DNA of 64,000 nucleotides from Labilibaculum filiforme (lineage in GTDB: Bacteria; Bacteroidota; Bacteroidia; Bacteroidales; Marinifilaceae). Each line of letters begins with the position of its first letter. Within the stretch, counting starts at the first letter, position 1. The position numbers were made by a program, and so were the translations under genes. Below the pieces are notes generated by a model. The model saw nothing but the letters and a program-made list of their open reading frames with translations. It was not told where the DNA came from and did no database searches. The DNA is taken from the NCBI RefSeq assembly GCF_002843315.1, contig NZ_MVDD01000003.1:186001-250000 (forward strand), written 5' to 3'. Positions 7,038 to 30,171 of this stretch are shown one piece after another.

Positions 7038-10000
7038 TTAGAAATCAAGCTGTATACCTACTCTGTATTGAGAACTAATAGGGTAATTACCTTTATCTAA
7101 ACCTCTGGTTGCCAATCCATCATTACCAACTTCAGGATCGTAACCTGTATACTCTGTAAAAGTCAAAGGATTATCGGCAGCTACGTAAAATCTTAATTTC
7201 GTAAGACCTACTTTATTAATGATATGATTAGGCATAGTGTATCCTAATGTTACATTACGCAAACGAACAAACGATCCATCTTCTACCCAAATATCAGCCC
7301 ATGCACGGTAATTATCGTGACTACCACCTCGGTTGGCAGGAATTACGCCATAAGGATTATCTGGTGACCATTGATACAATAGATCTTTATGCGTACCTGC
7401 TGTGTAAGCAAAAATCTTTGAACCATTAATTACTTCTTGTCCAACAGCCGCGAACCATTGCATAGAGAAATCGAATCCTTTATAATCGCAGTTAAAGTTT
7501 AAACCAACTTCAAATTCTGGAGTACCACTACCTCCATAAACACGATCACTTTCGTCGATTACATTATTTCCATCCTGATCCACATAGATTAAATCACCCA
7601 TTTTTGCACCAGAATTAATTTTTTGGTAATCTGCTAATTTTGCTTCCGTGTTTATGATTCCATTAGTTTCCATAACCATGTATGCACCAGCTTCGTACCC
7701 TTCTCTAATTACTGTAATTTTATCGCTGTTACCACTTACGTTGATAGGATTACCATTGGAGAAATAGGAAATTGGATTAGATCCTTTCATTTTAGTAATC
7801 TCATTTTCATTTTTAGAAAAAGTACCGTTTACCGACCAAGTAAATTTGCCATGATTTCGATAACCAACAGCCAATTCAACTCCTCGGTTACTCATATCAC
7901 CTACGTTAAGAATAACATCCTGATTTTGTCCTGCTCCTGCAGCTGTAGGAATTAATAGTGGGAATAACAAATCTTCCTTTTGTGTATCGTAGTAATCAGC
8001 AGTGATCGTTAATTTATTATCAAACAATCCTAAATCAATACCAATATTTTTCTGAATAGAAGTTTCCCACTGCACATATGGATTAGCATAACCAGTTTGA
8101 ATACCTCCTGTAGCTAGATTTGGATTTCCTTCACTACCAAAAGGATAGTCGTACCCAAAGCTTATGGTTGGTGAATTACTGTAATCCAAGAAACTCTGAT
8201 TACCAGTAGTACCATAACTACCTCTTAGTTTAAACGAATTAACCGGAGTTTGTAAGTCTTGCCAAAAATGTTCATCAGAAACGTTCCAACCAACAGAAGC
8301 AGATGGGAAAGTTCCCCAACGATTATCTTCTCCAAATCTCGACGATCCATCATGACGCACACTCACACTTAACAAATACCGACCTTTATAGTCGTATTGA
8401 GCACGAGCTAATAATCCAACCAAAGTGCTATTTTTATCCTGACTCCAACCTGTTCCAATTCCAACAGCTGGCTCAGTCGTTGTTTGACCAAGATTTTGAA
8501 CTTCATTACTAGTTATATCCTGTCCTGAAGCCCAAAAACTAGTGTAAGTATATTTTTCAGCCGATGCTACTGCCAACAACTTAATTTTGTGATCTCCTAG
8601 ACTTTTTGTGTAATTCAAACCACCATCCCAAGTAAAACTGGTATTACGACTACTTTGATCTTTAATACCAGAACGTGTATTTGAATTAATAATTAATTCT
8701 CCTTCATCGTCATAAACTTCAAACAAAGGATTAATCGTTACTCTCGTATCGTTTCCATACAACATACTTAAAGAACCTGTAAAGTTTAAACCTTTGGCTA
8801 ATTCAAGGTTTATATTTACATTTCCATTAAACTGTTCTCCGTTCCGTACATCTGTTTGTTTTAACTTTGCCATTACAGTACCTAATTGCTGCTGGTCATT
8901 TCCTAAGGTTCCTGCTCCTGTAAATGAAACCGCATTAGGATCTAAAGATGCTTGATAAGGTTTGTATTTGTATGCTTCGTATAACAAATTATAAGATGCA
9001 TAAGCTTGTTCTTCCACTCTAGCTCCTAAACTTGTTTTAATAGTCCATTTTCCTTTTGTGAAAGATGTATTTGCTCTTACATTATAACGCTCGTAATTGG
9101 AATTAATTAAAGTTCCTTCTTGTTCGAAATACGAACCAACAACATTGTAAGTTAAATCTTTTTTACCCCCTGAAATACTAACATTATGATTTTGAATAGA
9201 TGCATTATCATTTTCAATAACATCCATGATATTAGTGTTATTCGTAAAATTATCTGTCGAATTCTCAAGAGAAGTCCAGACATTATCCGAATTAGATGCT
9301 GCATCTAAATGGTTTTTATTCATGAAAAATGAATAAAAGTAATCTTCAAAATCAAGTAACTCGATACCCGAAGTAATTTTCTGAATTCCGTAATAACTGT
9401 TTACAGAAACTTTCATTTCTCCGGCCTTACCTTGTTTAGTAGTGATTAAGATAACCCCAGCAGCACCTCTAGTACCATAAATTGCACAAGAAGCCGCATC
9501 TTTCAAAATATCGATGGTCTCAATTTCACTATTAGCCAAACGAGGATCACCATTTTGAGGAATTCCGTCTACAACGAAAAGTGGTGAATTCTGTCCATTA
9601 ATAGAACTAATACCACGAATTTGGATATTAGAAGAGGCACCTGGCGCACCAGAACTAGCTTGAACACTAACCCCAGCTACTGTTCCTTGTAAAGCACTAC
9701 CCAAATCGGAAGTTGAAATTTTCTCCAGATCCTCAGACTTCACCTGAACTACCGCACCTGAAATTTCTTTTTTCCTTTGAGTTCCGTAACCAATCGCAAT
9801 AACTTCGTTCAAGTCATACGATTGAGGTTCCAATGCAACGTTAAGTTGCCCACTTGAAATCGTTTTCTCCAACGTTTCCATTCCCATAAAACTAAAAACA
9901 AGCACTTCGCCTTTATTAGCTTTAATACTGTAATGTCCATCAATGTCAGTAATTGTACCTATAGTTTTACCTTTAAGCACAACACTTACTCCGGGAATTG

Positions 10001-10136
10001 ATAGGTTATCTTCGCTAGAAACCACCTTTCCTTGGACTTGAATTTCTTGACCATACATATTAAAGGTCAACATCAACAAGAGGGATAAGACTATACCTCT
10101 CGCCTTCCATGAACTTATGTACCTTATGTCCTTCAT
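7038..10136 (-). CDS. susC: SusC/RagA family TonB-dependent outer-membrane transporter
   Basis: The start at MKDIRYISSW is chosen because a signal peptide follows, cleaved near FNMYGQ. An N-terminal carboxypeptidase-D-like domain (VQGKVVSSEDNLSIPGVSV) is followed by the TonB plug with the SusC signature (GYGTQRKKEISGAV, then the VVDGIPQNGDPRLANSEIETI region) and a 22-strand barrel to the C-terminal Phe. About 1,032 residues is normal for the family. It imports oligosaccharide across the outer membrane with SusD. It is the first gene of the operon, with a -7 box TACATTTG at 10195-10202 and a shared PUL operator candidate further upstream. Confidence 0.95.
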   Translation of the reverse strand: MKDIRYISSWKARGIVLSLLLMLTFNMYGQEIQVQGKVVSSEDNLSIPGVSVVLKGKTIGTITDIDGHYSIKANKGEVLVFSFMGMETLEKTISSGQLNVALEPQSYDLNEVIAIGYGTQRKKEISGAVVQVKSEDLEKISTSDLGSALQGTVAGVSVQASSGAPGASSNIQIRGISSINGQNSPLFVVDGIPQNGDPRLANSEIETIDILKDAASCAIYGTRGAAGVILITTKQGKAGEMKVSVNSYYGIQKITSGIELLDFEDYFYSFFMNKNHLDAASNSDNVWTSLENSTDNFTNNTNIMDVIENDNASIQNHNVSISGGKKDLTYNVVGSYFEQEGTLINSNYERYNVRANTSFTKGKWTIKTSLGARVEEQAYASYNLLYEAYKYKPYQASLDPNAVSFTGAGTLGNDQQQLGTVMAKLKQTDVRNGEQFNGNVNINLELAKGLNFTGSLSMLYGNDTRVTINPLFEVYDDEGELIINSNTRSGIKDQSSRNTSFTWDGGLNYTKSLGDHKIKLLAVASAEKYTYTSFWASGQDITSNEVQNLGQTTTEPAVGIGTGWSQDKNSTLVGLLARAQYDYKGRYLLSVSVRHDGSSRFGEDNRWGTFPSASVGWNVSDEHFWQDLQTPVNSFKLRGSYGTTGNQSFLDYSNSPTISFGYDYPFGSEGNPNLATGGIQTGYANPYVQWETSIQKNIGIDLGLFDNKLTITADYYDTQKEDLLFPLLIPTAAGAGQNQDVILNVGDMSNRGVELAVGYRNHGKFTWSVNGTFSKNENEITKMKGSNPISYFSNGNPINVSGNSDKITVIREGYEAGAYMVMETNGIINTEAKLADYQKINSGAKMGDLIYVDQDGNNVIDESDRVYGGSGTPEFEVGLNFNCDYKGFDFSMQWFAAVGQEVINGSKIFAYTAGTHKDLLYQWSPDNPYGVIPANRGGSHDNYRAWADIWVEDGSFVRLRNVTLGYTMPNHIINKVGLTKLRFYVAADNPLTFTEYTGYDPEVGNDGLATRGLDKGNYPISSQYRVGIQLDF

Positions 10137-10194
10137 AAAATTTAAAAATAGATTAGTTTTAAACAATTATCTGCATCTTTTACACTTTCTGAAA

Positions 10195-10258
10195 CAAATG
10201 TACTTTTCGTAAATGCAAACGTTGGAAAAAATTAGTTTCAATAGAAGGGGGATTTTTG
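10195..10258 (-). promoter_or_regulatory. Promoter and candidate HTCS operator of the susC operon
   Basis: On the coding strand the -7 box TACATTTG (10195-10202) fits the Bacteroidota TAnnTTTG consensus. There is no good -33 TTTG at the usual spacing. The motif CAAAAATCCCCC (10247-10258) ends 44 nt upstream of the -7 box. The same motif and spacing recur at three other PUL promoters, which suggests an activator site. Confidence 0.65.
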
Positions 10259-10548
10259 TTAAAAAATGTAAAAACACCAATTTTCAACACTTAAATCATT
10301 CAAAAACAACACTCCTACAGCATTCTAAACAACAATAAAAGAACCCTACCTAAGTCTTTATCAATCAAAACAAACCAGATGTAAAATCTTATTTACCCCT
10401 GCTAATTAAAGATATTTTCCCTCGGGTAGAATTGCACACGAACAACTCTTCCTTTTATTCAACTATGAAATACAAAATACCTGAAACAAAGCAAAACTAA
10501 TTAGTACACAATAGCAATACAACCTGTTATACGACAGTTAACTAAAAC
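10259..10548. other. Long upstream region of susC without genes
   Basis: AT-rich DNA between the susC promoter and the GH29 terminator. A possible further motif, TATTTTCCC next to CTCGGGTAG (10412-10428), resembles the C-run operator candidate, but its spacing fits no visible -7 box. I see no gene. Confidence 0.4.
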
Positions 10549-10575
10549 AAAAAAGAGGTGCCATAAGGCACCTCT
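10549..10575 (-). terminator. Terminator of the GH29 gene
   Basis: A perfect stem AGAGGTGCC / GGCACCTCT with an ATAA loop is followed on the minus strand by a T-rich run. It lies 40 bp after the GH29 stop codon. Confidence 0.92.
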
Positions 10576-10615
10576 ACACACAATTTCACTAACTAATTAA
10601 CTATCTAACAACAAA

Positions 10616-12136
10616 TTAATTCAATTCCACTACGAACGCACATGCATACTTTGCATTGGCATCAACGGTTGTTTTAATTTTAAGTCCTGCCTCATCCACT
10701 TGCCATTCACAAGCTTCATCTAATCCCAACATTTTCACCGACTTGATCTTTTCCTTGCAAACAGTACTTCCAGTAGCAAATGATTCAACAAGATATTCTC
10801 CATTTTCAGCAATATCCATCGCAATCACATATATTTTACCATCCTTTTGAGTAAACCGAAAATCAGCAGCCGTAAGATTTTTATTTTTCCCTTCGGTATG
10901 ATGACCCGTTTTAACTTCTGTAGGTCCTTCTCCGAAGATAGTCCATGGGCGTGTTCCGTAAATGGCTTCGCCATTTTTACTCAACCAACTTCCCATTTCA
11001 AGTAAAATATCTGCTTGATCTTGAGGTATTGTACCATCGGCTTTTGGGCCTACATTAAGCAGCATATTCCCATTTTTACTCACAATATCAATTAAATCAT
11101 CAATTAATGTATTTGCATCTTTCGAAATCCAATTGGTAGTATAACACCAACTATTTGTACCTATAGAGGTATCTGTTTGCCAAGGAAATTTTCTGATATC
11201 TGCTGATTTACCACGTTCAATATCTAAAACATTGGTTCCTTCGGGAAAAGTTTCGTGCTTAAAGTTCTTGGTTTGTAACACAACATCTTTATTCCAATCA
11301 ATTCCCTTATTATAATAGTAAGCCGCAAGTTTTGCATGATATGGTACAAACTCATCGTGATCCAAAACAAAATCAAACCAAAGAATATCAGGTTGATAAT
11401 TATCAATGATATCTTGAGTTCGGTTCCACCACATATCTAAAAATTCTTGATCGGCAGGAGCATAATGTTCATGTTCACGTGCATATAAATCGGCATACTC
11501 AGGGTTTGCAGTATCAAAGCCTTTTTTATGAGTGTAGTAATTCCAATTAAAAGCATAATGAGAAGAGGCTCCAAAATATAAACCGGCATCTTTAGTTGCT
11601 TTTGAAATTTCCCCTATCACATCACGTTTCGGTCCCATATCTGCAGCATTCCAACGAGTAAAATGTGACTTATACATTGCAAAACCATCATGATGTTCTG
11701 CTACTGGAACGATATATTTTGCTCCGGCTTTTTTAAATAAATCTACCCATTCTGTAGCATTAAACTTTTCAGCTTTAAACATTGGAATAAAATCTTTATA
11801 ACCAAACTCCCCTAAATTTCCGTAGGTTTCCACATGATGAGCATTAACTCCGGTTCCCGTATTCTCAACCATTTCTCCGGTTGGACTCCACAAAACTGAA
11901 TCCATATACATTAAACGGGGATACCATTCCGAGCCGTAAGCAGGCACACTATAGGGACCCCAATGAATAAAAATACCTAATTTGGCGTCTTGGAACCAAG
12001 CTGGAGTTTGATATTTGGCCAAAGAGTTCCAATTCTCCTCAAAAGGTTCACTATTCACCATTGTGGAATCTTTACTATTCACACAGGAAACAAATAGAGT
12101 TCCTACTAACAACATACTTATTGCAAGTTTTTTCAT
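10616..12136 (-). CDS. GH29 alpha-L-fucosidase family lipoprotein (possibly alpha-L-galactosidase)
   Basis: The start at MKKLAISMLL gives a lipoprotein signal with a lipobox Cys (LFVSC). The GH29 (beta/alpha)8 barrel is clear: LGIFIHWGPYSVPAYGSEWY near the N-terminus, then HHDGFAMYKSHFTRWNA, then PDILWFDF, whose Asp (about residue 255) is at the expected catalytic nucleophile position. NGNMLLNVGPKADG closes the barrel, followed by a small C-terminal beta domain. It should release alpha-L-fucose, or alpha-L-galactose, which differs only at C6; some GH29 members use L-galactosides. It is a single-gene transcript with its own promoter and terminator, between the susC operon and the HTCS. The nearby L-galactose catabolic operon makes the L-galactosidase option worth testing. 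Confidence 0.92.
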   Translation of the reverse strand: MKKLAISMLLVGTLFVSCVNSKDSTMVNSEPFEENWNSLAKYQTPAWFQDAKLGIFIHWGPYSVPAYGSEWYPRLMYMDSVLWSPTGEMVENTGTGVNAHHVETYGNLGEFGYKDFIPMFKAEKFNATEWVDLFKKAGAKYIVPVAEHHDGFAMYKSHFTRWNAADMGPKRDVIGEISKATKDAGLYFGASSHYAFNWNYYTHKKGFDTANPEYADLYAREHEHYAPADQEFLDMWWNRTQDIIDNYQPDILWFDFVLDHDEFVPYHAKLAAYYYNKGIDWNKDVVLQTKNFKHETFPEGTNVLDIERGKSADIRKFPWQTDTSIGTNSWCYTTNWISKDANTLIDDLIDIVSKNGNMLLNVGPKADGTIPQDQADILLEMGSWLSKNGEAIYGTRPWTIFGEGPTEVKTGHHTEGKNKNLTAADFRFTQKDGKIYVIAMDIAENGEYLVESFATGSTVCKEKIKSVKMLGLDEACEWQVDEAGLKIKTTVDANAKYACAFVVELN

Positions 12137-12246
12137 CTTTTCTTTGTTAATTTCAAGTTGAACAATCTGCATTTTCATAAAAACAAAACTTTTTTACTCT
12201 CCTGCAAATTGTTTAATAATTTTAAAAGTGTACTTAGATCGCGATT

Positions 12247-12310
12247 CAAAAATACATGTTGCAAACTCCTTGTACAGATAGAAACTGCGACTATTACAGG
12301 GGGGAATTTC
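12247..12310 (-). promoter_or_regulatory. Promoter and candidate HTCS operator of GH29
   Basis: On the coding strand, GAAATTCCCCCC (12299-12310) ends 44 nt upstream of a perfect -7 box TATTTTTG (12247-12254). Motif and spacing match those of the susC promoter. The rest of the 331-bp gap to the HTCS gene shows no gene. Confidence 0.65.
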
Positions 12311-12404
12311 TCACAGCTGTCCCTATTGCAGACTGAAAGGGACATTTATAAACTATTTAAGGGTATTTTTTCAATCAGGCTTTAATAATCCATTAAAGAC
12401 TATA

Positions 12405-12441
12405 AAAAAGAAGGAGAACCATTCATTGTGGTTCTCCTTCT
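12405..12441 (-). terminator. Terminator of the HTCS gene
   Basis: A 13-bp perfect stem (AGAAGGAGAACCA and its complement, 12409-12441) with a 7-nt loop and T-rich sequence on the minus strand. It lies 26 bp after the HTCS stop. Confidence 0.93.
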
Positions 12442-12467
12442 ATTCAAAAAATATATTTTTGCTTTAT

Positions 12468-15400
12468 TTATGCCTCATCTTCTTGATCTTCTCGATGCCT
12501 TCTAATAAATTCGGATGGCGTAGTTCCAAATTGCTTCCTAAAACATTCCCTAAAATACTTCATATCGTTAAAACCCACCTCATATACCACATCAGTAACC
12601 GACAATCGATCTAATTTTAATAACTGCGCTGCTCTTTTCAATCGAATGGTTCGAATAAAAACATTGGCAGTCTGCCCTAACAATGCCTTCAATTTTTTAT
12701 TTAAAATAGACTGACTAATTCCTACTTCGCGCCCTAACTGAACCACCGTGAATTCAGGATTGCTAATATTTTCTTCCACCACCTTCAACAAACGTTCTAC
12801 CAGTTTCTCGTCAATAGAAGTAAAAGTTATTTCTTTAGGCTCAATTTCAATTTTTTGATTAAAAACATGTCTCACTAATCTACGTGCCTCCAAAATTGAT
12901 TTTATTTGAGCAACAAGCACGTCAATATTAAACGGTTTTGAAATATAAGCTACTGCACCTTCTGTTAATCCGATCAGCTTATCTTCATCGGCCGATTTTG
13001 CAGTTAAAATTACGATGGGAATATGACATATTTCCTGATCCTGCTTAATTAGATTACACATTTCGAACCCGTCCATTTCAGGCATCATCACATCGCTAAT
13101 AATAATATCAGGAGTAAACTTACGACACAAGTCAATCCCTTCTTTACCATTGTATGCCTGTATGCAATTAAACTCTTCCTCTAAATTAGTTTTTATTAAT
13201 GCCTGAACATCATAATTATCTTCAACAATTAAAACACTTGATTTATCCTCATCAAACACCACATTTTCCAGTGATTGTTGCTCCCTTTTTTCAATTTGGT
13301 AATCTTTTACTACGATTTGTTTTTCTATAGCTTGCTCCATAGGCTGATCGGAAAAATCATCCTCTTTAAAATGAAGTTTTCCCTTACTTAAATACACCGA
13401 AAATACTGTAGCAATATTCGGATTACTAGAAACCATTATTTTCCCATGGTGCAAATTGATAAGATTTTTGGCAAATGCTAAACCTATTCCCGTACCTGAT
13501 ACTTTTGATAATTTGTGGCTACTCGTTTGGTAAAAACGATCAAAAAGAAAAGGAAGCTTTTCTCTATCTATACCTGGACCATTATCTTTTATATCAAATC
13601 GTACCCACTCCTTCCCTTCAATCTCCTCCTCCGAAACAATAATTGAAACTTCGCCCCCTTGAGGTGTAAATTTAAATGCATTGGAAAGTAGATTAAACAG
13701 TACTTTTTCTATTTTGTCGTAATCAAACCACAACTCCACCGAAGGGTAAGCATTTTTTAATTCGTAACGAATTCCTTTCGATTGGGCTATCTCATTAAAT
13801 GCATCAAAAACTTCATTTACCAACTCCATTACATTGCCTCGAGATACAGCCAATGGCATTTTACCCTTTTCTAATTTTCTAAATTCCATTAATTGATTAA
13901 TCAATCGATTTAGCATACCAACATTCTTAATCATTAAAGAATAATTACGCTGACGATACACTTCATCCACCCGATCGCCTTTGGATATTAATTTTTCTAA
14001 TGGACTCTGTATTAGCGTAAGAGGAGTTCTAAACTCATGCGATATATTGGTGAAAAATTGCAATTTCATTTGAACCAGCTCTTCCATTTTTTCTTGTTCG
14101 AAATGCTCCATCATGAGTTGATTCTTTTTGGTAACATCAATAATTGAATACCTACGGAAAAAAACCATAAGCACAATAAAAAGGATTCCATAAAGTAGAA
14201 ATGCAAAACTAGTAAACCAAAATGGAGGAACAACTTCAATAAATATGCTAGAGGGAAGAGTTGCCCATACACCATCATTATTAGTAGCCAAAACAATCAG
14301 TGTATATTCTCCTGGCGGTATATTCGTATATTTTGCTCTGGGATCTGCACTATTAACAACCGTCCATTCGGTATCGAAACCATCTAATTTATATTTATAG
14401 CTAATTTTTTCGGGTGCCACATAATGAAGTGCAGTAAAACCTACGGAAAAACTATTTTCGGAATACCTTAATTTAATAGAATCTGTTGAAGGCATCTCAC
14501 TCTCGAGCAACACCCGTCCATTATATTTCTTGCCTGTTAATATTTGCTGATTAAGCACAAATAATTCTGTAAACTCAACTTCGGAACCGTATGGATTATC
14601 AACAATCTCGCTTGGATTAAACACATTAAGACCATTAACGCCTCCAAATATCATCTCCCCATTTACTTTCGTATAAGAGGCCAATTCACTAAACTCATAA
14701 TCTTGTAATCCATCAGATACCGAATAGTTTCTAATTTCATCTGTTTCGGGATTAAAGCGAGTGAGTCCCTTATTGGTAGATATCCACAAATTACCATCTC
14801 CATCTTCTTCCAATGCCTTAATTGCATCGTTTGGTAAGCCATGTTTTGAGGTATAGGTTTTAAATTTGAAAGTACTCCCAAATTGCTCCAGCAATAAACA
14901 TAGGCCACCACCCATTGTGCCCACCCAAGTTCGATCTTTACTATCTACATACATGGCCATCACATAATTATGCGACAATGAATTTTCATCCCCACAAACA
15001 TGTACTGCCTTCAGAAAATAAGGATCTGGTTTGTATTTTTCGTTTTGTAGTAACAAATTCAATCCCTGATCGGTACCGATAAAAATATTCCCTTCCTTAT
15101 CCTCTATTAAACTTCTTACAATATCTGAAGATAAACACCCATCTCCCTCACTATCCGCGTTATAATGATTTAAGATGACCAATTCCTTCTTCTCAACATC
15201 ATAGCTTGCCTTGTACAAACCATCGCTATAGGTTCCTAACCAAATTAAATCATCGCGACCAACTAGAATTGTAAAAACAGGATTTTTTACCAAATTACTT
15301 AGTGAACTAAATTCAATATTTTCCTTGCCTTTTAAAGTACAAATTGCCAATTTCGTTGGATATCCAACTCCCATTAATACACTTTCCGGTTTCCCTGGTA

Positions 15401-16664
15401 TGCCTTTAATACAATAAACGTAATTTTGAGCTCGTTCATTTGTACTTATTGGAATATTTACAAAACCATTTTGATAATTTTCTGTTTCATACTTAGATAG
15501 AAAAGAAACACCTCCACCTTCGGTACCAATCCATAAATTTGCATTGGGATCTTCATAAACAGCTCGAACTTTATTATATGCCAAACTTCCTTTTGAATTT
15601 GATTGACTTATATGGTGAAACTTTTTCTCATTTAAATCTAACTTATTAAGTCCTCCACCATTGGTTCCTACCCATAAAAGTCCCGACTTATCCTCGTACA
15701 AAATGGTTATATTATTTTTACTGAGACTGCCAGAATTGTAGAATTCCGATTGAAAATTTCGAATTAAATCCAATTGCTCCAAATCATCATCCCACATAAA
15801 CTGAAATAAACCTTTAGGATTCCCTCCAAAAATGAACTCTTTACTAGTTCTGATTAAGTTTGCAAAAAAATAGGGCGCAACTTTCTTTACTTCCAACTTA
15901 TCTTTGTCAAGAGAGCCTTTTAAAAAATAAACTGCATCGTTAAACGATATCAAATAACCATTTTTTGTTTCAACAATATCACGACAATAACCATTAAAAT
16001 TTAGACTAATCTCATTAAGTTCTAAACTTAAATTTGTTGACAATTTAAATAGAAACAACCCTTTAGCACTGCTTAACCATAACTGCTGCTTCGAATCTTC
16101 TTTTAAAACATATATAGTAGCTAAATCATGAACTACATTTGCTTTATCAACAGCAGTTCTAAATACAGCACCTCGATATTCGTTTCTATTTTTATTATAG
16201 ACTTTCGTATCTAAAACACTTAAGCCTTTGGAGGAAGAAAGCCAAAGCATTCCATTCGAATCAAGCAATAGGTTACCTATTTTAGTACCAAGAATAATTT
16301 GCTTCCCGTTTATTTCATTTGGGATCTTATGAAATTCCTCTTTTTTTCGATCAAAAAACCAAAGCCCATTATCGGAAGTTGCAATCCAAAAATTTCCATT
16401 ATCATCTTCTGTCATACCAAATGGAAGGTTACTCCCAATTGGAAATTCCATAGGAGAAGTTCTTTTGTATGTTACAAAGTTCAATCCATCGAATCGATTC
16501 AAACCATCATAGGTTCCAAACCACATAAAACCTTTCGAATCCTGAAAAATGAAGGTAACATCATTTTGAGAAAGACCATCAAGCGTGCTCAAATGATCAA
16601 AATCGGATTGTGAGTAAGAAAATAAACTTGTAAACAATAACAAAAAGGACAGAAGTATACGCAT
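12468..16664 (-). CDS. Hybrid two-component system (HTCS) sensor/regulator of the PUL
   Basis: A 1398-residue single-chain regulator with a signal peptide (LFSYSQSDF). The periplasmic sensor has many Reg_prop propeller blades (WFGTYDGLNRFDG, LWVGTNGGGLNKLD, LWIGTEGGGVSFL and others) to about residue 720, then a Y_Y_Y domain (YKYKLDGFDTEW). A membrane segment follows at about 808-832, then HisKA with SHEFRTPLT (His about 876), HATPase (DNGPGIDREKLPFLFDRF, SGTGIGLAFAKNL), a receiver with IISDVMMPEMDG (Asp about 1191) and a C-terminal AraC-type HTH (GISQSILNKKLKALLGQ to the end). It should sense an oligosaccharide and activate the PUL promoters. It sits in the middle of the PUL with its own terminator. 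Confidence 0.96.
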   Translation of the reverse strand: MRILLSFLLLFTSLFSYSQSDFDHLSTLDGLSQNDVTFIFQDSKGFMWFGTYDGLNRFDGLNFVTYKRTSPMEFPIGSNLPFGMTEDDNGNFWIATSDNGLWFFDRKKEEFHKIPNEINGKQIILGTKIGNLLLDSNGMLWLSSSKGLSVLDTKVYNKNRNEYRGAVFRTAVDKANVVHDLATIYVLKEDSKQQLWLSSAKGLFLFKLSTNLSLELNEISLNFNGYCRDIVETKNGYLISFNDAVYFLKGSLDKDKLEVKKVAPYFFANLIRTSKEFIFGGNPKGLFQFMWDDDLEQLDLIRNFQSEFYNSGSLSKNNITILYEDKSGLLWVGTNGGGLNKLDLNEKKFHHISQSNSKGSLAYNKVRAVYEDPNANLWIGTEGGGVSFLSKYETENYQNGFVNIPISTNERAQNYVYCIKGIPGKPESVLMGVGYPTKLAICTLKGKENIEFSSLSNLVKNPVFTILVGRDDLIWLGTYSDGLYKASYDVEKKELVILNHYNADSEGDGCLSSDIVRSLIEDKEGNIFIGTDQGLNLLLQNEKYKPDPYFLKAVHVCGDENSLSHNYVMAMYVDSKDRTWVGTMGGGLCLLLEQFGSTFKFKTYTSKHGLPNDAIKALEEDGDGNLWISTNKGLTRFNPETDEIRNYSVSDGLQDYEFSELASYTKVNGEMIFGGVNGLNVFNPSEIVDNPYGSEVEFTELFVLNQQILTGKKYNGRVLLESEMPSTDSIKLRYSENSFSVGFTALHYVAPEKISYKYKLDGFDTEWTVVNSADPRAKYTNIPPGEYTLIVLATNNDGVWATLPSSIFIEVVPPFWFTSFAFLLYGILFIVLMVFFRRYSIIDVTKKNQLMMEHFEQEKMEELVQMKLQFFTNISHEFRTPLTLIQSPLEKLISKGDRVDEVYRQRNYSLMIKNVGMLNRLINQLMEFRKLEKGKMPLAVSRGNVMELVNEVFDAFNEIAQSKGIRYELKNAYPSVELWFDYDKIEKVLFNLLSNAFKFTPQGGEVSIIVSEEEIEGKEWVRFDIKDNGPGIDREKLPFLFDRFYQTSSHKLSKVSGTGIGLAFAKNLINLHHGKIMVSSNPNIATVFSVYLSKGKLHFKEDDFSDQPMEQAIEKQIVVKDYQIEKREQQSLENVVFDEDKSSVLIVEDNYDVQALIKTNLEEEFNCIQAYNGKEGIDLCRKFTPDIIISDVMMPEMDGFEMCNLIKQDQEICHIPIVILTAKSADEDKLIGLTEGAVAYISKPFNIDVLVAQIKSILEARRLVRHVFNQKIEIEPKEITFTSIDEKLVERLLKVVEENISNPEFTVVQLGREVGISQSILNKKLKALLGQTANVFIRTIRLKRAAQLLKLDRLSVTDVVYEVGFNDMKYFRECFRKQFGTTPSEFIRRHREDQEDEA

Positions 16665-16725
16665 ATAAGATTAATTACTAGATTATTACCGCGACCTTAA
16701 ACCAATTAGTAAATAATGGACTTAA

Positions 16726-16747
16726 ATCGATCATTGAAACAATCGAT
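16726..16747. promoter_or_regulatory. ATCGAT inverted repeat upstream of the HTCS gene
   Basis: ATCGATCATTG and CAATCGAT face each other across AAA, about 60 bp upstream of the HTCS start. The right arm AAACAATCGAT is identical to part of the LacI operator candidate at 32012-32027. It may be a weak LacI-family site linking the two regulators, or chance in AT-rich DNA. Confidence 0.35.
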
Positions 16748-16753
16748 AATGTA

Positions 16754-16787
16754 TAAAAAAAAACCTTCCCTACATAGAATGCAGGGA
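16754..16787 (-). terminator. Terminator of the GH3 gene
   Basis: On the minus strand CCCTGCAT pairs with ATGTAGGG (one G-U) around a TCT loop, followed by a long T run. It lies 24 bp after the GH3 stop. Confidence 0.88.
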
Positions 16788-16811
16788 TAAGTTTATATTT
16801 CACTTTAGAAT

Positions 16812-19010
16812 TTATTTTACTACAAATACATCCTCAATTAACTTTACAGAACCTAATTTTGACATATCTTGGATAGGAGAACTACCTCCTACCATAATTT
16901 TATACTGCCCTTTTACTACCACTTCTTTTCCTTCTTCCGAAATTTGAGCTAATTTTTTTGTATCTATTTCAAATTCTACTTTTTTCGTTTCTCCTTTAAG
17001 CGTTGTAATTCGTTTAAATCCAATCAGTTTTTTAAATGGTGCAGTTTGTCCAGCTCCGGGTTGACTCAAATACAATTGAACCACTTCATCACTATCGTAA
17101 TTACCTGAGTTTGTTATTTCTACACTTGCTTTTACGCTTTCTTCTCTTTTAATTTTCTTGGCACTTAATTGCAAATTTGAATATTGAAACTGAGTATAAC
17201 TCAATCCAAACCCAAAAGGAAATAATGGATCTTCCTTCATAAATTTATAAGTTCTGCCATTCATACTATAATCATTGTAAGCGGGAAGTTGATCCATACT
17301 CTTTAGAAATGTTACAGGCAATTTACCCGATGGAGAAACTTTACCAAAAACAATATCCGCTACGGCGGTTCCTCCATCTTGTCCTGGATACCAAGCCCAT
17401 ACTATTGCATCAGCCAATTCAGCTACTTCAGGAATAATCATAGGACTTCCTCCAGTCATTACAACAATTACTGGTTTTTTATTATCCTTTTTCAGTTTAC
17501 GCAAAAACTCCAGTTGATTTGAAGGTAAGAATGGTTGTAATCGATCTCCCATAGTTTCCGATGCAATAGCATCCCCTTCTTCGCCTTCCATTGCACTTGA
17601 TATGCCTAAAACAGCAATAATGGCATCAGCGCTCTTAGCTTCTCCTGTAGTCCAATCAATTGGATTTACATTATCACGAAAAGGCAAGCATCCCATTTTA
17701 TAGTTGATAGTAGTTCCGGAACTTACTGTAGCGGTAATTCCTTCTAAAATATTTACCAAACGATTGCTCATTCCGTAATAATTCCCTAATAAAACTTCAC
17801 TATTGTTGGCTTGTGGACCAGTAACATACAAATTTTTAATGTTCGGAGATAATGGTAATGCATTATTCTTGTTGGTAAGCAATACAATGGATTTTTGAGC
17901 TACTTCCAAAGCAAGAGAATTATGCTCATCGCTACAAATTACTTCCTCACCCAATTTACTGTATGGATTATCTTCTTCCGGATCGAAAAAACCTAACTTA
18001 AATCTTGTGTTTAGTAAAGCTCGTAAGCTTTTATCGATTGTTTCCTCCTTCACCAAGCCTTTTTGAACAGCTTCCACTAGGTTTGGATATACTCTTCCGC
18101 AATTTAAATCGACCCCAGTATTAATAGCTAAAGCTGCCGACTCTACAGCATTTTTAGTAACCTTATGATGAGCGTGAAAATCCTCGATTGCACCGCAATC
18201 GGAAACTACATGCCCCTTAAAACCCCATTTTTCGCGCAGAATTTCCTGCATCAACAAGTTACTTCCGCAAGCTGGCTCTCCCAACACACGATTATAGGCT
18301 CCCATTACCGATTCTACTTTAGCTTCCTTAACTAAAGCCTCAAAAGCTGGAAGATAGGTTTCATAAAGGTCTTTTTGAGAGGTAATCGCATCAAATTCAT
18401 GACGCAAGGCCTCTGGACCGGAATGTACTGCATAATGTTTTGCACATGCCGCGGTTTTTAAATAGTTGGGATTGTCTCCTTGTAAACCTTTCACAAAAGC
18501 AACACCAATTCGAGAAGTTAAATATGGATCTTCTCCATATGTTTCTTGACCTCTACCCCATCTTGCATCCCTGAAGATATTAATGTTAGGAGTCCAAAAA
18601 GTTAGTCCTGCATATTTAGACCGATTATCATTTTTTATAGAAATATTAAATTTAGCCCTTGCCTCATCCGAAATGGCAGAGGAAACTCTTTGTGCCAAAT
18701 CAGTATCAAATGTAGCTGCTAATCCAATAGCTTGCGGAAAAACAGTTGACCTTCCATTTCTTGCAACTCCGTGTAAACATTCATTCCACCAATTGTAAAG
18801 TGGTACAGATAAACGTGGTATTGCTTCACTAACATCTGTCAATTGCGATACTTTTTCTTCTAAAGTCATTGCATCAATTAATGCATCTATCCTCGTTTCT
18901 ACAGGCAAAGTAGTATTATACCATTCAAAACTTTCATTTTGCGCGCTAACAATACTTTGATTAGCCAAACTGATCATTACCAGCAGAAAAAATAATCTCA
19001 ATTTCATCAT
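16812..19010 (-). CDS. GH3 beta-glucosidase/beta-xylosidase-type glycoside hydrolase
   Basis: A 732-residue protein with a cleavable signal peptide (SIVSAQNES). The GH3 N-terminal barrel contains MTLEEKVSQL, ECLHGVARNG, a KHYAVHSGPEALRH substrate-binding segment and VVSDCGAI, whose Asp (about residue 268) is the expected nucleophile. The C-terminal alpha/beta sandwich (VVMTGGSPM) is followed by FPFGFGLSYTQF and a fibronectin-III-like domain. Family members remove terminal beta-glucose, beta-xylose or alpha-arabinose; NWWNECLHGV resembles the xylosidase/glucosidase subgroup. MMK gives two adjacent possible starts. It is probably periplasmic. It is divergent from the second GH2 gene, with a shared regulatory region. 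Confidence 0.93.
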   Translation of the reverse strand: MMKLRLFFLLVMISLANQSIVSAQNESFEWYNTTLPVETRIDALIDAMTLEEKVSQLTDVSEAIPRLSVPLYNWWNECLHGVARNGRSTVFPQAIGLAATFDTDLAQRVSSAISDEARAKFNISIKNDNRSKYAGLTFWTPNINIFRDARWGRGQETYGEDPYLTSRIGVAFVKGLQGDNPNYLKTAACAKHYAVHSGPEALRHEFDAITSQKDLYETYLPAFEALVKEAKVESVMGAYNRVLGEPACGSNLLMQEILREKWGFKGHVVSDCGAIEDFHAHHKVTKNAVESAALAINTGVDLNCGRVYPNLVEAVQKGLVKEETIDKSLRALLNTRFKLGFFDPEEDNPYSKLGEEVICSDEHNSLALEVAQKSIVLLTNKNNALPLSPNIKNLYVTGPQANNSEVLLGNYYGMSNRLVNILEGITATVSSGTTINYKMGCLPFRDNVNPIDWTTGEAKSADAIIAVLGISSAMEGEEGDAIASETMGDRLQPFLPSNQLEFLRKLKKDNKKPVIVVMTGGSPMIIPEVAELADAIVWAWYPGQDGGTAVADIVFGKVSPSGKLPVTFLKSMDQLPAYNDYSMNGRTYKFMKEDPLFPFGFGLSYTQFQYSNLQLSAKKIKREESVKASVEITNSGNYDSDEVVQLYLSQPGAGQTAPFKKLIGFKRITTLKGETKKVEFEIDTKKLAQISEEGKEVVVKGQYKIMVGGSSPIQDMSKLGSVKLIEDVFVVK

Positions 19011-19077
19011 ATCTCTTTGTACTTATTCGTATCTAAAATTACTTAAACTATCAATTCTTTCGAAGAATTAATAATTT

Positions 19078-19144
19078 CAAACCTAACATCATTATGAACA
19101 AAACCTAGGGTGTATTTTCCACAAATTAAGAGGGGGTATTTTCC
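19078..19144 (-). promoter_or_regulatory. Promoter and candidate HTCS operators of GH3
   Basis: On the coding strand the -7 box is TAGGTTTG (19078-19085). GGAAAATACCCCC (ending at 19132) lies 46 nt upstream of it. A related GGAAAATACACC (19109-19120) sits 24 bp closer to the gene, so two direct repeats are present, as expected for an AraC-type activator dimer. Confidence 0.62.
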
Positions 19145-19287
19145 CTACACTAATAATACCATTCCAGAATAAAATCACTACCTACTATATTACAAACACT
19201 TAACCTGTTGTGTAAATCAAAAACTTACCATTCTAAAAATTACAAACAATGCGTTTTCAACTTTTAACTACTCCATTATTTTATCAA

Positions 19288-19351
19288 AAAAATTACCCCT
19301 AAGTCTATTAGAAAATGCCCCCTCGCGATTTGTATTTTGAATTTACCTTTG
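19288..19351 (+). promoter_or_regulatory. Promoter and candidate HTCS operator of the second GH2 gene
   Basis: AAAAATTACCCC (ending at 19299) lies 44 nt upstream of a perfect -7 box TACCTTTG (19344-19351). A second AAAATGCCCCC lies at 19312-19322. This promoter falls downstream of the ATG at 19315, so the gene must start later, at 19447. Confidence 0.6.
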
Positions 19352-19446: not shown

Positions 19447-21948
19447 ATGAATAAAAAAAAATACAAATCAAAATTATTCGACACTGCTACCCTACTAATA
19501 ATTGCAATTTGCACAATTGGATTGGGAGCTTGCAAGCAAACTCAACTACTTTCCGATCAAGAATTTAACAAAGAGTGGTTGTTTTTTAAAGGGGAAGCAG
19601 AGAACGCAATTTTAGTGGAGTTTGATGATTCTAATTGGAGGAAACTAAACCTTCCTCACGATTGGGCAATCGAGGGTCCATTTAGTAAAGAATACAATGC
19701 ACGAACCGGTGGACTTCCTGTTCATGGAACAGGATGGTACCGAAAACACTTTCAAATTAGTAAGGTGGCTCAGAATAAGATTATTTCGGTAGAATTTGAT
19801 GGTGCTATGAATAATGCAAATGTATGGGTAAATGGTCAATTTGCGGGAAAAAGACCATTCGGATATATTGGATTTGAATTTGATATTACCCCTTTTATAA
19901 AATTCGGAGAAGAAAATGTAATTGCGGTGCGCTTAAGCCCTGAAGATCTGTCTGCAAGATGGTACTCTGGTGCCGGTATCTATCGGAATGTGAAATTGAA
20001 AATCAATAATAAACTTCACATCCCGCAATGGGGTACAAAAATTACAAGTAAAAACATTTCCGGTTCAAATACTCAGGTAAACATTACAAGTTCAATTTGT
20101 AATAAATATAAAGATCAGAAAACAGCTCAACTGCAAACACAAATACTTTCTCCAAAAGGGGAAATCATATCTGTAATTACATCCGACATAGTTATTCAGG
20201 CAAAAACAACTGGAATTGTTGATCAGAAATTAAATGTGGAAAATCCTCAAGTTTGGAGTCTTGAGACACCAAACATATATACTGCAATCAGTAATATACT
20301 TATCGGCGGAAAAACCGTGGATAGTTACGAAAGTAAGTTCGGAATACGGGAAATAAAATTTACTCCTGAAAATGGATTTCAACTAAACGGTAAAACAATA
20401 AAATTACAAGGTGTTTGTATGCATCATGATTTGGGACCTTTGGGAACTGCCGTTAATTATCGGGCAACCGAAAGACAAATGGAAATAATGAAAGGAATGG
20501 GAGTTAATGCGCTACGTACAAGTCATAATCCTCCATCCCCCGAAATGCTTGAAATATGCGACAAACTAGGAATTCTTGTTCAAGTTGAGGCTTTTGATGA
20601 ATGGAAGATTGGAAAAGTTCCAAACGGATACAACAAATATTTCGACGAATGGCATGAGAAAGACCTGCGCGACATGATAAAAAGAGATCGGAATCATCCT
20701 TCGGTAATTATGTGGAGTATTGGAAATGAAATATTAGAACAGGGAAAAACAGATGGATGGAAGATTGCTAAAGCACTAACTGAAATTTGTCATTCAGAAG
20801 ATTCTACAAGACCAACAACAGCAGGCTTTAATTATTATCCTGCTCCTTTCGAAAATCAATTAACAAAGTATGTGGATATTGTTGGAATGAACTACTGGCC
20901 AATTAATTACGAAGAAATCCTCGAAGCAAATCCAAATATGATTGTTTATGGCTCCGAAACTTCTTCGCAAACAAGTAGCCGTGGCGTTTACCACTTCCCT
21001 ATTGAGGCAAAGGAGCAACACCAAACCAATCAGGTATCTAGTTACGATGTTACCGTTGGACCAGCTTGGGCATATCCTCCCGATGTTGAATTTGAGCAAC
21101 AAGAAAAAGTCAAAAGATCATTGGGGGAATTTATGTGGACAGGCTTCGATTATTTAGGGGAACCAACGCCTTATGGTGGTCGCGACAATTCCACTCATGG
21201 TTATTGGAATGATGATTGGCCTTCTCGTTCTTCTTATTTTGCTCCGGTTGACCTATGCGGATTTCCAAAAGACCGGTATTATTTATACCAAAGCCAATGG
21301 ACTACAAAACCAATGGTTCATGTTCTTCCGCATTGGAATTGGGAAGGAAAGGAAGGCGATATTATTCCAGTATATTCCTATACCAACTGCGACGAAGTGG
21401 AGCTATTTGTTAATGGAAAATCATTCGGGAAAAAAGTAAAAGGCGTTGATTTAACTCCAATTCCTGCAGAGTTTCATTTCTTTCCTAAAGGAACGTATCT
21501 ATCGAAATACCGTTTGTCGTGGGATGTTCCCTATCAGCCTGGTAACATTAAGGTAGTAGCATACAAAAACGGTAAGGTGGAAGCCGAAAAAGAAATTCAT
21601 ACCGCAGGAAAAGCATCTCAGATAAACCTGGTTGCAGATAGAGGTACGATAAATGCAGATGGCAAAGATTTATCGTTTATAACGGTACGTATTGAAGACG
21701 AAAATGGAAATTTATGCCCAAATGCAAATCAATTAATTGAATTTTCGATAGAAGGTAATGGAGTGATTACCGCAGTGGGTAATGGCGATGCCACCTCATT
21801 AAAGGCTTACCAATCCAAAGAAAGAAATGCTTTTAATGGTTTGTGCCTTTTAATTGTAAAATCGACAGAAAAATCTGGTATCATCAAAATTACAGCCAAA
21901 AGTAATTCACTAACATGCAGTGAATTAACAATAAATAGTAAGAAATAG
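19447..21948 (+). CDS. GH2 beta-galactosidase-type lipoprotein
   Basis: The ATG at 19447 is chosen because it begins a lipoprotein signal (lipobox LGAC) and the frame upstream of it contains the promoter. The 833 residues comprise a GH2 sugar-binding domain (DDSNWRKLNLPHDWAIEGPF, GTGWYRKHF), an Ig-like domain and a barrel with VMWSIGNE (acid/base Glu about 428) and VYGSETSS (expected nucleophile Glu about 504). C-terminal DUF4982-like and invasin-like Ig domains follow. Most such PUL enzymes are beta-galactosidases, but beta-glucuronidase or related activity cannot be excluded. It is divergent from the GH3 gene and followed by a terminator. Confidence 0.9.
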   Translation: MNKKKYKSKLFDTATLLIIAICTIGLGACKQTQLLSDQEFNKEWLFFKGEAENAILVEFDDSNWRKLNLPHDWAIEGPFSKEYNARTGGLPVHGTGWYRKHFQISKVAQNKIISVEFDGAMNNANVWVNGQFAGKRPFGYIGFEFDITPFIKFGEENVIAVRLSPEDLSARWYSGAGIYRNVKLKINNKLHIPQWGTKITSKNISGSNTQVNITSSICNKYKDQKTAQLQTQILSPKGEIISVITSDIVIQAKTTGIVDQKLNVENPQVWSLETPNIYTAISNILIGGKTVDSYESKFGIREIKFTPENGFQLNGKTIKLQGVCMHHDLGPLGTAVNYRATERQMEIMKGMGVNALRTSHNPPSPEMLEICDKLGILVQVEAFDEWKIGKVPNGYNKYFDEWHEKDLRDMIKRDRNHPSVIMWSIGNEILEQGKTDGWKIAKALTEICHSEDSTRPTTAGFNYYPAPFENQLTKYVDIVGMNYWPINYEEILEANPNMIVYGSETSSQTSSRGVYHFPIEAKEQHQTNQVSSYDVTVGPAWAYPPDVEFEQQEKVKRSLGEFMWTGFDYLGEPTPYGGRDNSTHGYWNDDWPSRSSYFAPVDLCGFPKDRYYLYQSQWTTKPMVHVLPHWNWEGKEGDIIPVYSYTNCDEVELFVNGKSFGKKVKGVDLTPIPAEFHFFPKGTYLSKYRLSWDVPYQPGNIKVVAYKNGKVEAEKEIHTAGKASQINLVADRGTINADGKDLSFITVRIEDENGNLCPNANQLIEFSIEGNGVITAVGNGDATSLKAYQSKERNAFNGLCLLIVKSTEKSGIIKITAKSNSLTCSELTINSKK

Positions 21949-22145: not shown

Positions 22146-23162
22146 CTAATCTAGAGAAACAACGGCTTTCACAACCCCAGTTTTAGGATTTAACCATGTT
22201 TTAAAATCTTCAATCATATTCTCAAACTTCGCTCTATGCGTAATTAGCGAATTTACATTTATTTTGCCTTTTTTCATACAATCAACTACATGATCGAAAT
22301 CTTCTCTGGTAGCATTTCTACTGCTTCTTAGTGTAGTTTCTCTTTTATGAAATTCAGGATGTGAGAAGCTAAATGTATCCAACTGCAAGCCAACCAAGGT
22401 AATACGTCCACTATGAGCTAGAAAATTAAGATTTCCCTCAATTGCTCTTTTGTTACCCGTAGCATCGATAATTGCAGTAACCATATCGCCACCGGTAATC
22501 TTCTTAATTGCTTCAAAAGGATCATTTAAAGCATTCACAGTATAATCAACACCAAAGTGCTCTTTCGCAAATTCTAATCGGTTATCCTGAACATCTAAAG
22601 CAATTACTTTAGCACCTGCAATTTTTGCAAAAGCCATAGCTCCTAATCCGATTGGACCAGCACCTGTTACCAAAACAAATTCATCTTTTTTAATTTCGGT
22701 TATGCGAACAGAATGCGCACCAACAGCCATTGGTTCTACCATAGCCAATTCATCGTAGCTCATTCCTTGTCCATGAATTAAAGCATATTCTGGCACATTC
22801 ATGTATTCGCCCATTCCACCGTCGATATGAACTCCAGCAACCTCAATAGTAGTACAGCAATTTGGCTTTCCGGCTCTGCACGCAACACAATTACCACAAG
22901 GAAAATAAGGAATAAAAGTAACCGCTTCGCCTTTTTTAAACCCCTGATCATTTGAATCGATATCTACAATATCACCTGCTAATTCATGTCCAAGTACTCT
23001 TGGATAAGAAAAAAATGGTTGAGTTCCTTCAAAAGCGTGCAAATCGGTTCCACAAACCCCAATTCTCTTTATTTTCAATAAAGCATTTCCTTCTTTTCTT
23101 TCAGGTTGAGATGTTTCTTTCATCTCAAATTTACCTGGTTCAATACATACTAATTGCTTCAT
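22146..23162 (-). CDS. Zinc-dependent sugar-acid dehydrogenase, likely L-galactonate 5-dehydrogenase
   Basis: The start at MKQLVCIEPG is chosen; the longer frame runs into the neighbouring gene. This medium-chain alcohol dehydrogenase (338 residues) has GVCGTDLHAFEG and GHELAGDI for catalytic zinc, the four-Cys lobe in CGNCVACRAGKPNCC for structural zinc, and a Rossmann GAGPIGLGA. LgoD-type members oxidise L-galactonate to D-tagaturonate with NAD+. It is the last gene of an operon that also encodes UxaB and UxaA but, within this window, no uronate isomerase, so an enzyme making tagaturonate is needed and this one fits. It could instead act on L-fuconate or its ketodeoxy product. Cytoplasmic. 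Confidence 0.85.
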   Translation of the reverse strand: MKQLVCIEPGKFEMKETSQPERKEGNALLKIKRIGVCGTDLHAFEGTQPFFSYPRVLGHELAGDIVDIDSNDQGFKKGEAVTFIPYFPCGNCVACRAGKPNCCTTIEVAGVHIDGGMGEYMNVPEYALIHGQGMSYDELAMVEPMAVGAHSVRITEIKKDEFVLVTGAGPIGLGAMAFAKIAGAKVIALDVQDNRLEFAKEHFGVDYTVNALNDPFEAIKKITGGDMVTAIIDATGNKRAIEGNLNFLAHSGRITLVGLQLDTFSFSHPEFHKRETTLRSSRNATREDFDHVVDCMKKGKINVNSLITHRAKFENMIEDFKTWLNPKTGVVKAVVSLD

Positions 23163-23173
23163 TATTCTATTTT

Positions 23174-23539
23174 TTAAAGTCCTAATTTGTAAATACGTTC
23201 CATTAATTGCCATTTTTCGTCGGCACTTGCATCGGCAGATGTATTCTGAAAACGAGCTACATGAGCCTCCCATTCCGACTGGCGTGGCTTTGTTGCCAAT
23301 TCTGTCATTGCTTTATCATGATCGAAGTCTGTTACGGTATCCATGATCATAAATAGCTGATTTTTTGTGAGGTAAATCTCCATGTCTATAATTCCAACAT
23401 CGAGCATTCCTTGTGTAATTTCGGGCCATGCAGCACCCGCCGCATGAACCTTTTTATATTCATCAATCAGCTTGTCGTCATTTTTTAAACAAAGCGATTT
23501 GCAATATCTTTTATAGCTGTCTGGTTTCTTCATTTTCAA
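23174..23539 (-). CDS. RhaM-family sugar mutarotase (L-fucose/L-galactose type)
   Basis: A 121-residue protein of the L-rhamnose mutarotase family (formerly DUF718), recognised by YKKVHAAGAAWPEI near the N-terminus, the IYLTKNQLFMIMDT strand and the C-terminal EWEAHVARFQ region. Such small dimeric ferredoxin-like enzymes interconvert alpha and beta anomers of 6-deoxy or related sugars, and in Bacteroidota they often sit with fucose genes. Here it follows the permease by 6 bp and precedes the zinc dehydrogenase by 11 bp. It should supply the anomer used by the aldose dehydrogenase. The sugar (L-galactose or L-fucose) is inferred from the operon. An alternative start two codons in is equally possible. 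Confidence 0.85.
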   Translation of the reverse strand: MKMKKPDSYKRYCKSLCLKNDDKLIDEYKKVHAAGAAWPEITQGMLDVGIIDMEIYLTKNQLFMIMDTVTDFDHDKAMTELATKPRQSEWEAHVARFQNTSADASADEKWQLMERIYKLGL

Positions 23540-23545
23540 ATTTAT

Positions 23546-24955: not shown

Positions 24956-25005
24956 AATCGAATTTTTTAGTTAAAAAAAGTTGAATTCTATTTTTAAAAA
25001 GGCAA

Positions 25006-25968: not shown

Positions 25969-25975
25969 TCTTTCT

Positions 25976-26818: not shown

Positions 26819-26830
26819 AAGCTCTTAATC

Positions 26831-27505: not shown

Positions 27506-27618
27506 TTCTATTCTAATTATGAGATATAAGTTATGAATTATGAGTTGTCTTGCTTTAGGAGCGAGAGTATTCGATTTTTCTAATTCATAATTATTAATTC
27601 ATCATTTATAATTCAGTA
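27506..27618. repeat. AT-rich imperfect inverted repeats inside the operon
   Basis: ATAAGTTATGAATTATGAG (27530-27548 region) and the segment from TAATTCATAATTATTAATTC to TATAATTCAG (27579-27617) are related in opposite orientation around a less AT-rich centre. It may be a remnant of a small palindromic element. No coding potential is seen. Confidence 0.4.
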
Positions 27619-28659: not shown

Positions 28660-28680
28660 CGTATTCTTAATTTGTCAGTT

Positions 28681-30129: not shown

Positions 30130-30171
30130 TTTTCCGAACTATTATTCTTAAAAATTCTATTTGTATCTTAT

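Follow-up and report, generated by a model that had tools for sequence, protein, structure and literature searches.

The 64,000-nucleotide stretch of Labilibaculum filiforme DNA analysed here (contig NZ_MVDD01000003.1, positions 186,001 to 250,000; called the window below) carries a polysaccharide utilization locus (PUL) in which the gene for a hybrid two-component system (HTCS) lies among susC and glycoside hydrolase (GH) genes whose promoters share a run of C nucleotides. The HTCS (12468–16664, reverse strand) has all of the domains that define such regulators in one chain, with Pfam matches to a two-component propeller, Y_Y_Y, HisKA, HATPase, a receiver and an AraC-type helix-turn-helix. 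It is the proposed binder of the C-run element, and its four proposed targets in the window are SusC, a TonB-dependent receptor (7038–10166), GH29 (10616–12178) and GH3 (16812–19010), all identified by Pfam on the reverse strand, and a second GH2 on the forward strand (19447–21948). Positions on the contig that carries the window are prefixed C3, such that C3:185183 equals window position -817.

Promoters of the primary sigma factor in Bacteroidota have the -7 element TAnnTTTG and the -33 element TTTG or TTG. A preliminary description of this DNA had reported four C-run motifs, each followed by a perfect TAnnTTTG after a gap of 44, 44, 46 or 44 nt, respectively, and we find all four exactly so placed. 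Upstream of susC, the sequence CAAAAATCCCCC (10247–10258, reverse strand) is followed 23 bp further by a similar element, CTAATTTTTTCC (10224–10235), and then by the -7 box TACATTTG (10195–10202), which begins 44 nt after the first element. This is the top-scoring site (34.1) for a matrix built without the present genome, and the columns of its downstream element are mostly invariant over five genomes. The GH29 promoter has GAAATTCCCCCC (12299–12310, reverse strand), found by both pattern and matrix, and the box TATTTTTG (12247–12254) after a gap of 44 nt; its degenerate downstream element (12276–12287) was placed by the 23-bp period and is weak (score 1.8). The pattern and matrix likewise both identify GAAAATACCCCC (19132–19143, reverse strand) before GH3, with a gap of 46 nt to the box TAGGTTTG (19078–19085), and AAAAATTACCCC (19288–19299, forward strand) before the second GH2, with a gap of 44 nt to the box TACCTTTG (19344–19351).

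For these two promoters, the downstream elements can be read directly in the sequence: GAAAATACACCC (19108–19119), 24 bp further along the GH3 promoter, and GAAAATGCCCCC (19311–19322), 23 bp further along that of the second GH2. The former is the additional C-run copy that had been noticed 24 bp away at GH3; it lies downstream and constitutes the second half of a tandem operator. The listed open reading frame (ORF) of the second GH2 has its first ATG at 19315, upstream of the -7 box, and for this reason the true start is probably the ATG at 19447, which fits the 832–833 amino acids (aa) of orthologous ORFs.

Architecture of the proposed C-run operator

The -7 box by itself is no proof, since TAnnTTTG occurs in the window at chance frequency (89 occurrences versus 93 expected). 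The genome-wide search that the preliminary description proposed as a check was run with the strict pattern AAAWTNCCCCN{38,48}TANNTTTG, which returns four matches in 5.2 Mb, all of them the window sites, and one match in a backward control. Because this pattern was made from the same four sites, independent tests that use a matrix from foreign genomes and orthologous loci carry more weight.

A search of 56 genomes of the family, the present one included, finds close HTCS orthologs in five: the genome under study (G000; 5,195,448 bases) and four others (G001, G034, G049 and G050), the last two of which are nearly identical at the HTCS locus. The orthologs are 68–74% identical to the window protein, and the next-best relative reaches 41%. 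Six promoters were compared across the five genomes, namely those of SusC, GH29, GH3, the second GH2, a first GH2 and that GH2's divergently oriented neighbour, which is a GH16 in G000 and G001. An operator matrix was built from 22 of the 30 possible promoter rows, leaving out the six from G049 (near-copies of those from G050), the second GH2 of G034 (which has a strong downstream half only) and the divergent gene of G001. Scans of G000 used only the 16 matrix rows that come from other genomes.

When aligned on the C-run, the 22 rows display a conserved AAAT-N-CCCC followed by a weaker second block at +14 to +23. Sliding the half-site matrix along the DNA gives a single peak at shifts of 22–24 bp, highest at 23 (mean -3.0 over the 22 training rows), and all means outside shifts 22–26 are -9.6 or lower. 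The mean is -2.3 at shift 23 and no higher than -8.8 elsewhere for 16 rows outside the training set, which come from the genomic island described below and had themselves been selected in scans whose score included a second half; the lowest of all means is -16.4. This single peak identifies the C-run noted before as the upstream one of two half-sites that make up a tandem operator. The two half-sites are similar and have the same orientation, and thus form a direct repeat, as is expected of HTCS operators.

The distance to the promoter is similarly constrained. Gaps of 42–46 nt account for 11 matches in the G000 island, where about one is expected per five gaps, and for nine in the G001 island, where 0.6 are expected. 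A -33 element is not evident between the downstream half-site and the box: every column there stays at or below 0.34 bits in the 22 rows, which are aligned on the C-run and in which the variable gap blurs the signal. This absence fits an activator-dependent promoter.

Two further tandem repeats lie upstream of these operators. One, detected above susC by the matrix scan, has the opposite orientation (10388–10422, forward strand) and no -7 box at 42–46 nt. It recurs 129–172 bp above the proximal operator in G000, G001, G050 and G034, and can be discerned by eye in G049; in our alignment of the susC upstream regions, the G049 repeat falls outside the chosen coordinates and that of G001 is poorly aligned. 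Its scores of 13.8–17.7 are modest, given that the only match in a reversed 24-kb control scores 17.6, and recurrence is therefore the main argument for this element, which may be an auxiliary operator that acts at a distance. The other repeat (12338–12372, reverse strand; score 15.0) is located 62 bp above the proximal GH29 operator. Among the four genomes scanned for it (G000, G001, G034 and G050), G034 has a counterpart 60 bp above its operator (24.0), and none is listed in G001 or G050.

Distribution with HTCS orthologs and across the island

The gene order GH2-hypothetical-carbohydrate-binding module (CBM) protein-SusD-SusC-GH29-HTCS-GH3-GH2 is retained in all four of the other genomes that have the HTCS. 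At 29 of the 30 promoters, a C-run of at least four nucleotides precedes, at a distance of 42–46 nt, a box that has no more than one mismatch; the sole exception is the second GH2 of G034, where the C-run is kept in the downstream half only. The divergent-gene site of G001 scores 30.1 in the matrix scan. In the present genome, the operators of the first GH2 and of the GH16 fall a short way beyond the left end of the window, at C3:185183 and C3:185138 (window positions -817 and -862), the family of the first GH2 being assigned from its window part only.

A looser pattern, AAANNNCCCCN{43,46}TANNTTTG, was run on all 56 family genomes, with some of the resulting rows being overlapping readings of one site. 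It yields 6, 5, 5, 8 and 6 rows in the five genomes with the ortholog (30 in total, against 6 in backward controls), and 49 rows, 0–3 per genome, in the 51 genomes that lack it (controls, 63). The DNA-binding domains of the HTCS proteins are 94–98% identical among the orthologs while the propeller sensors have diverged to 60–62%, and this conservation of the DNA-binding domain matches that of the operator. This HTCS and its four orthologs also carry the CHIP part of the S/CHIP-DK motif, a motif that the accessible part of PMC11253607 describes as an inhibitory contact between receiver and DNA-binding domain. No operator is found at the HTCS gene's own promoter, either by matrix in G000 or by eye in the four ortholog genomes. 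The earlier suggestion that the C-run is the site of the HTCS encoded beside it thus gains sequence-based support from co-occurrence with the ortholog, from the conserved DNA-binding domain and from the HTCS-like architecture.

The sites extend well beyond the window. An adjoining island of about 103 kb, roughly 2% of the genome, consists of probable porphyran genes, and we scanned 184 kb around it (C3:66001–250000) with the matrix trained without this genome. At a threshold score of 19 there are 19 matches, compared with a mean of 1.6 (maximum 4) in 20 runs of first-order resampled sequence and 2 in the reversed sequence. Sixteen of the matches are separate island promoters on the right strand, one is an additional repeat that overlaps the site at a second susC, and two are outside the island. 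Counting transcription-unit starts within C3:101–208 kb for the island, and in flanks that include window positions 22–64 kb, an operator is present at 17 of 33 island starts and at none of 35 flanking starts.

Beyond the four window promoters, the first GH2 and the GH16, this leaves eleven more candidate promoters. They precede an operon with DUF5060/apiosidase-like and sulfatase genes (C3:106408), a gene with porphyranase domains (C3:107750–109891), the second susC (C3:118941), four sulfatases (C3:121003, 144119, 144356 and 159969), two GH43 genes (C3:130955 and 166307) and two GH2 genes (C3:139127 and 159631). We take the porphyranase-domain gene to be a GH86. The same matrix approach in G001 gives 15 matches, 14 of which are before island genes and one outside, and thirteen promoter pairs correspond between G000 and G001, as judged by position and similar N-termini without individual alignment.

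The preliminary description held that its idea would fall if the motif were equally common at unrelated promoters. This is not what the genome shows: of the 16 distinct matches that a relaxed pattern finds in it, ten are in the island, with three rows in the backward control. Since genomes without the ortholog average about one row of the looser pattern given above, isolated matches outside the island are not counted as targets. Among these, a similar C-run and box occur at C4:137940 and at C1:5381127 of G001, in each case far from the island and between a gene that is GH2-like in its first residues and a divergent gene for a protein of about 545 aa; C4:137940 may be an outlying regulon member. 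Another match at C10:70402, with a similar one in G001, is probably unrelated and lies before a gene whose product resembles a subunit of an oxidoreductase, and a site at position 3131191 of G001 has no link to the island.

Candidate binding proteins, proposed mode of action and likely substrate

We conclude, with a probability of roughly 0.87, that the C-run forms the half farther from the promoter in a direct-repeat activator operator, predicted for the HTCS at 12468–16664. Several observations weigh against this conclusion or against parts of it. The half-site spacing of 22–24 bp exceeds the published HTCS average of 21 bp (mean over 16 HTCSs), and the downstream half-site of the first GH2 (-0.9), like that of GH29 (1.8), is weak. 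Close orthologs were found in just five genomes, including the nearly identical pair. Within the island, 16 of the 33 transcription-unit starts are without a site, the GH86-type site scores exactly at the threshold (19.0), and just six of the 16 island promoters exceed the best resampled score of 25.1, so the other sites rest on their number, position and conservation. The -7 consensus is perfect at the four window promoters, and several island sites have boxes with one mismatch; because such boxes end in A (TAnnTTTA) or begin with TC (TCnnTTTG), the individual weak island sites are candidates only. In G034, the relaxed pattern matches seven places outside the island in addition to eight within it. 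The sites, their spacing, conservation, enrichment and co-occurrence with the HTCS are direct results, and binding, activation, the ligand and the transcription starts are predictions.

The most durable of the alternatives, though a very unlikely one, is that the operator belongs to a 383-aa island protein that, judged by eye, resembles a winged helix at its N-terminus and probably has a membrane segment. There are two copies each in the islands of G000 (C3:113031–114182 and C3:180835–181986) and G001, and G034 has a relative of 46% identity immediately beyond the locus; the two G000 proteins have no Pfam or NCBIfam match and are possibly uncharacterised membrane regulators. However, relatives of the protein at 113031 (59–60% identical) are present in all five of the tested genus genomes that have no operator excess. 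G049 and G050 have operators, yet their 77%-identical relative of this protein is on another contig or far away, and none is near the locus. The protein at 180835 was compared within the fetched regions only. Moreover, a direct repeat of 21–23 bp is the architecture of HTCS sites and does not point to the 383-aa protein.

A slightly less probable explanation is that the motif is a general promoter element of these bacteria. C-run repeats can indeed be seen by eye before susC at paralogous HTCS loci too, but all 35 neighbouring transcription-unit starts lack the motif, and genomes that have no ortholog do not rise above their backward controls; both results contradict a general role. We give still less credence to binding by another HTCS, for which the chief candidate is the one encoded at C3:126904–130920. 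This protein contains an AraC-type domain and sits mid-island in G000, but the G001 island, whose sites persist, lacks a counterpart, and the DNA-binding domain of the G000 protein is 38% identical to that of the window HTCS. Six HTCSs besides that of the window are listed for this genome (E 1e-60), the mid-island one included, and their DNA-binding domains are at most 44% identical to its own, with the one on contig C14 aligned over 15 residues only. Least credible of all is that C-runs and boxes line up by accident and were noticed post hoc: the motif was first picked by eye and the box is about as frequent in the window as chance predicts, but the leave-one-genome-out matrix recovers the sites, and both half-sites and their spacing are conserved.

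If the window HTCS does bind the C-run operator, activation might proceed as follows. The HTCS would sense an oligosaccharide, probably derived from porphyran, whereupon its receiver domain would be phosphorylated and the AraC-type domain freed. Two HTCS subunits, aligned on one face of the DNA, would then occupy the two half-sites, AAATNCCCC and the weaker copy 22–24 bp downstream. The bound protein would adjoin a promoter with a good -7 box and no conserved -33 element, and would recruit RNA polymerase, with the rigid distance of 42–46 nt setting the contact between HTCS and polymerase. As the same operator precedes about 17 transcription units over about 103 kb, one HTCS would be the master activator of the island. 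We lean modestly towards this broader proposal, in which a single HTCS governs the whole red-algal galactan island, about 17 promoters and both SusC systems included, by means of one rigidly placed tandem C-run operator of 23-bp period, and in which the distal susC repeat may act remotely.

The target glycan is likely to be porphyran, with L-galactose as the released sugar, because the GH16, the GH29, the porphyranase-domain gene and enzymes of an L-galactose type of operon all suggest this substrate. The nearest solved structures to the GH16 are beta-porphyranases, those to the GH29 are an alpha-L-fucosidase (7snk) and exo-alpha-L-galactosidases (7ljj and 7lnp), and one island gene has porphyranase domains. 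The operon (22146–31824, reverse strand) encodes a relative of L-galactose dehydrogenase, together with a tagaturonate reductase, a FucP-type permease and a KDPG aldolase that are above the cut-offs, and fucono-lactonase-, dehydratase- and KDG-kinase-like proteins that are below them. It is likely an L-galactose catabolic operon. No C-run site is found at the two of its starts that were examined (window positions 27505 and 31824); a gene for a LacI-type regulator (32132) adjoins the operon. A comparable PUL of B. plebeius is described in the accessible part of PMC12316285.

Relation to known regulatory systems

Paralogous HTCSs that are 40–41% identical to the window protein are encoded in G001, G050 and G034 (loci L104–L106), and their DNA-binding domains are 57–59% identical to its own. 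Tandem C-run half-sites are visible by eye before the susC gene at each of these loci as well, but their sequences are AGTCCCCC / AACACCCCC or similar, and each susC has two tandem copies. A site 44 nt from a box is listed for L104 and L106. With the present matrix, the paralog sites score 17.3–19.7, which is no better than the reversed controls from the same loci (16.0, 19.4 and 20.8). Together, the two systems offer a test case for joint change of an HTCS DNA-binding domain and its half-site (AAATNCCCC here, AGTCCCCC in the paralog). At L106:7329 (forward strand), a C-run site, separated by 44 nt from a box, precedes the HTCS gene of the G034 paralog and scores 19.0, below the reversed control of 20.8; this paralog may be self-regulated, unlike the window HTCS.

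A wider set comprised 80 HTCS loci, whose best segments are at most 39% identical to this HTCS, and the three paralog loci. Among these 83, the top score reaches at least 21 in four loci and in one of the reversed controls. The 80 wider loci proved too distant for footprinting with this motif and were kept for the geometry of the 21-bp repeat only. The susC promoters of these loci and of L104–L106 have a self-similarity of 0.436 at a shift of 21 bp, compared with 0.225–0.328 outside shifts 21–23 (17 candidates from 15 of 44 SusC-like ORFs, without a shuffle test). HTCS-linked susC promoters of other Bacteroidota thus resemble the present ones in having a repeat in the same window before TAnnTTTG, but differ in its letters (for example, GAAAC) and in its 21-bp period.

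To our knowledge, few HTCS operators have been tested experimentally. A sharp, searchable half-site with fixed geometry and about 17 predicted targets would make this a directly testable regulon, and it predicts which distant enzymes share one glycan programme. In the open-access literature, to which our search was confined, we found no description of a C-run operator or of a porphyran HTCS regulon, and the accessible parts of PMC10994844, PMC12596196 and PMC12125979 hold nothing on HTCS operators.

The carrageenan regulon of Zobellia galactanivorans, as presented in the accessible part of PMC5698469, is similar in that scattered genes for a red-algal galactan are linked to one activator of the AraC family. 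Its regulator, CgrA, differs in being an AraC-family factor, with no HTCS mentioned there, and the substrate is carrageenan. The closest precedent is the set of HTCS motifs predicted for 16 HTCSs of B. thetaiotaomicron (Ravcheev et al. 2013, PMC3878776, accessible part), which are direct repeats an average of 21 bp apart. As here, these operators consist of two sites about two helical turns apart and precede the operons of PULs for which there is a cognate HTCS of the AraC type. The class of operator was thus already known from that prediction, and the particular features of the present system are its C-run half-site and its 22–24 bp period. The same source ties HTCSs usually to one PUL; distant targets are also predicted there, but they are few. 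The present case differs in the half-site AAATNCCCC(C), in the period and in the reach to about 17 promoters over about 103 kb, the published motifs having been compared by text rather than by logos. Thus, the type of switch is known, whereas the C-run site and the large set of genes that it would serve look new.

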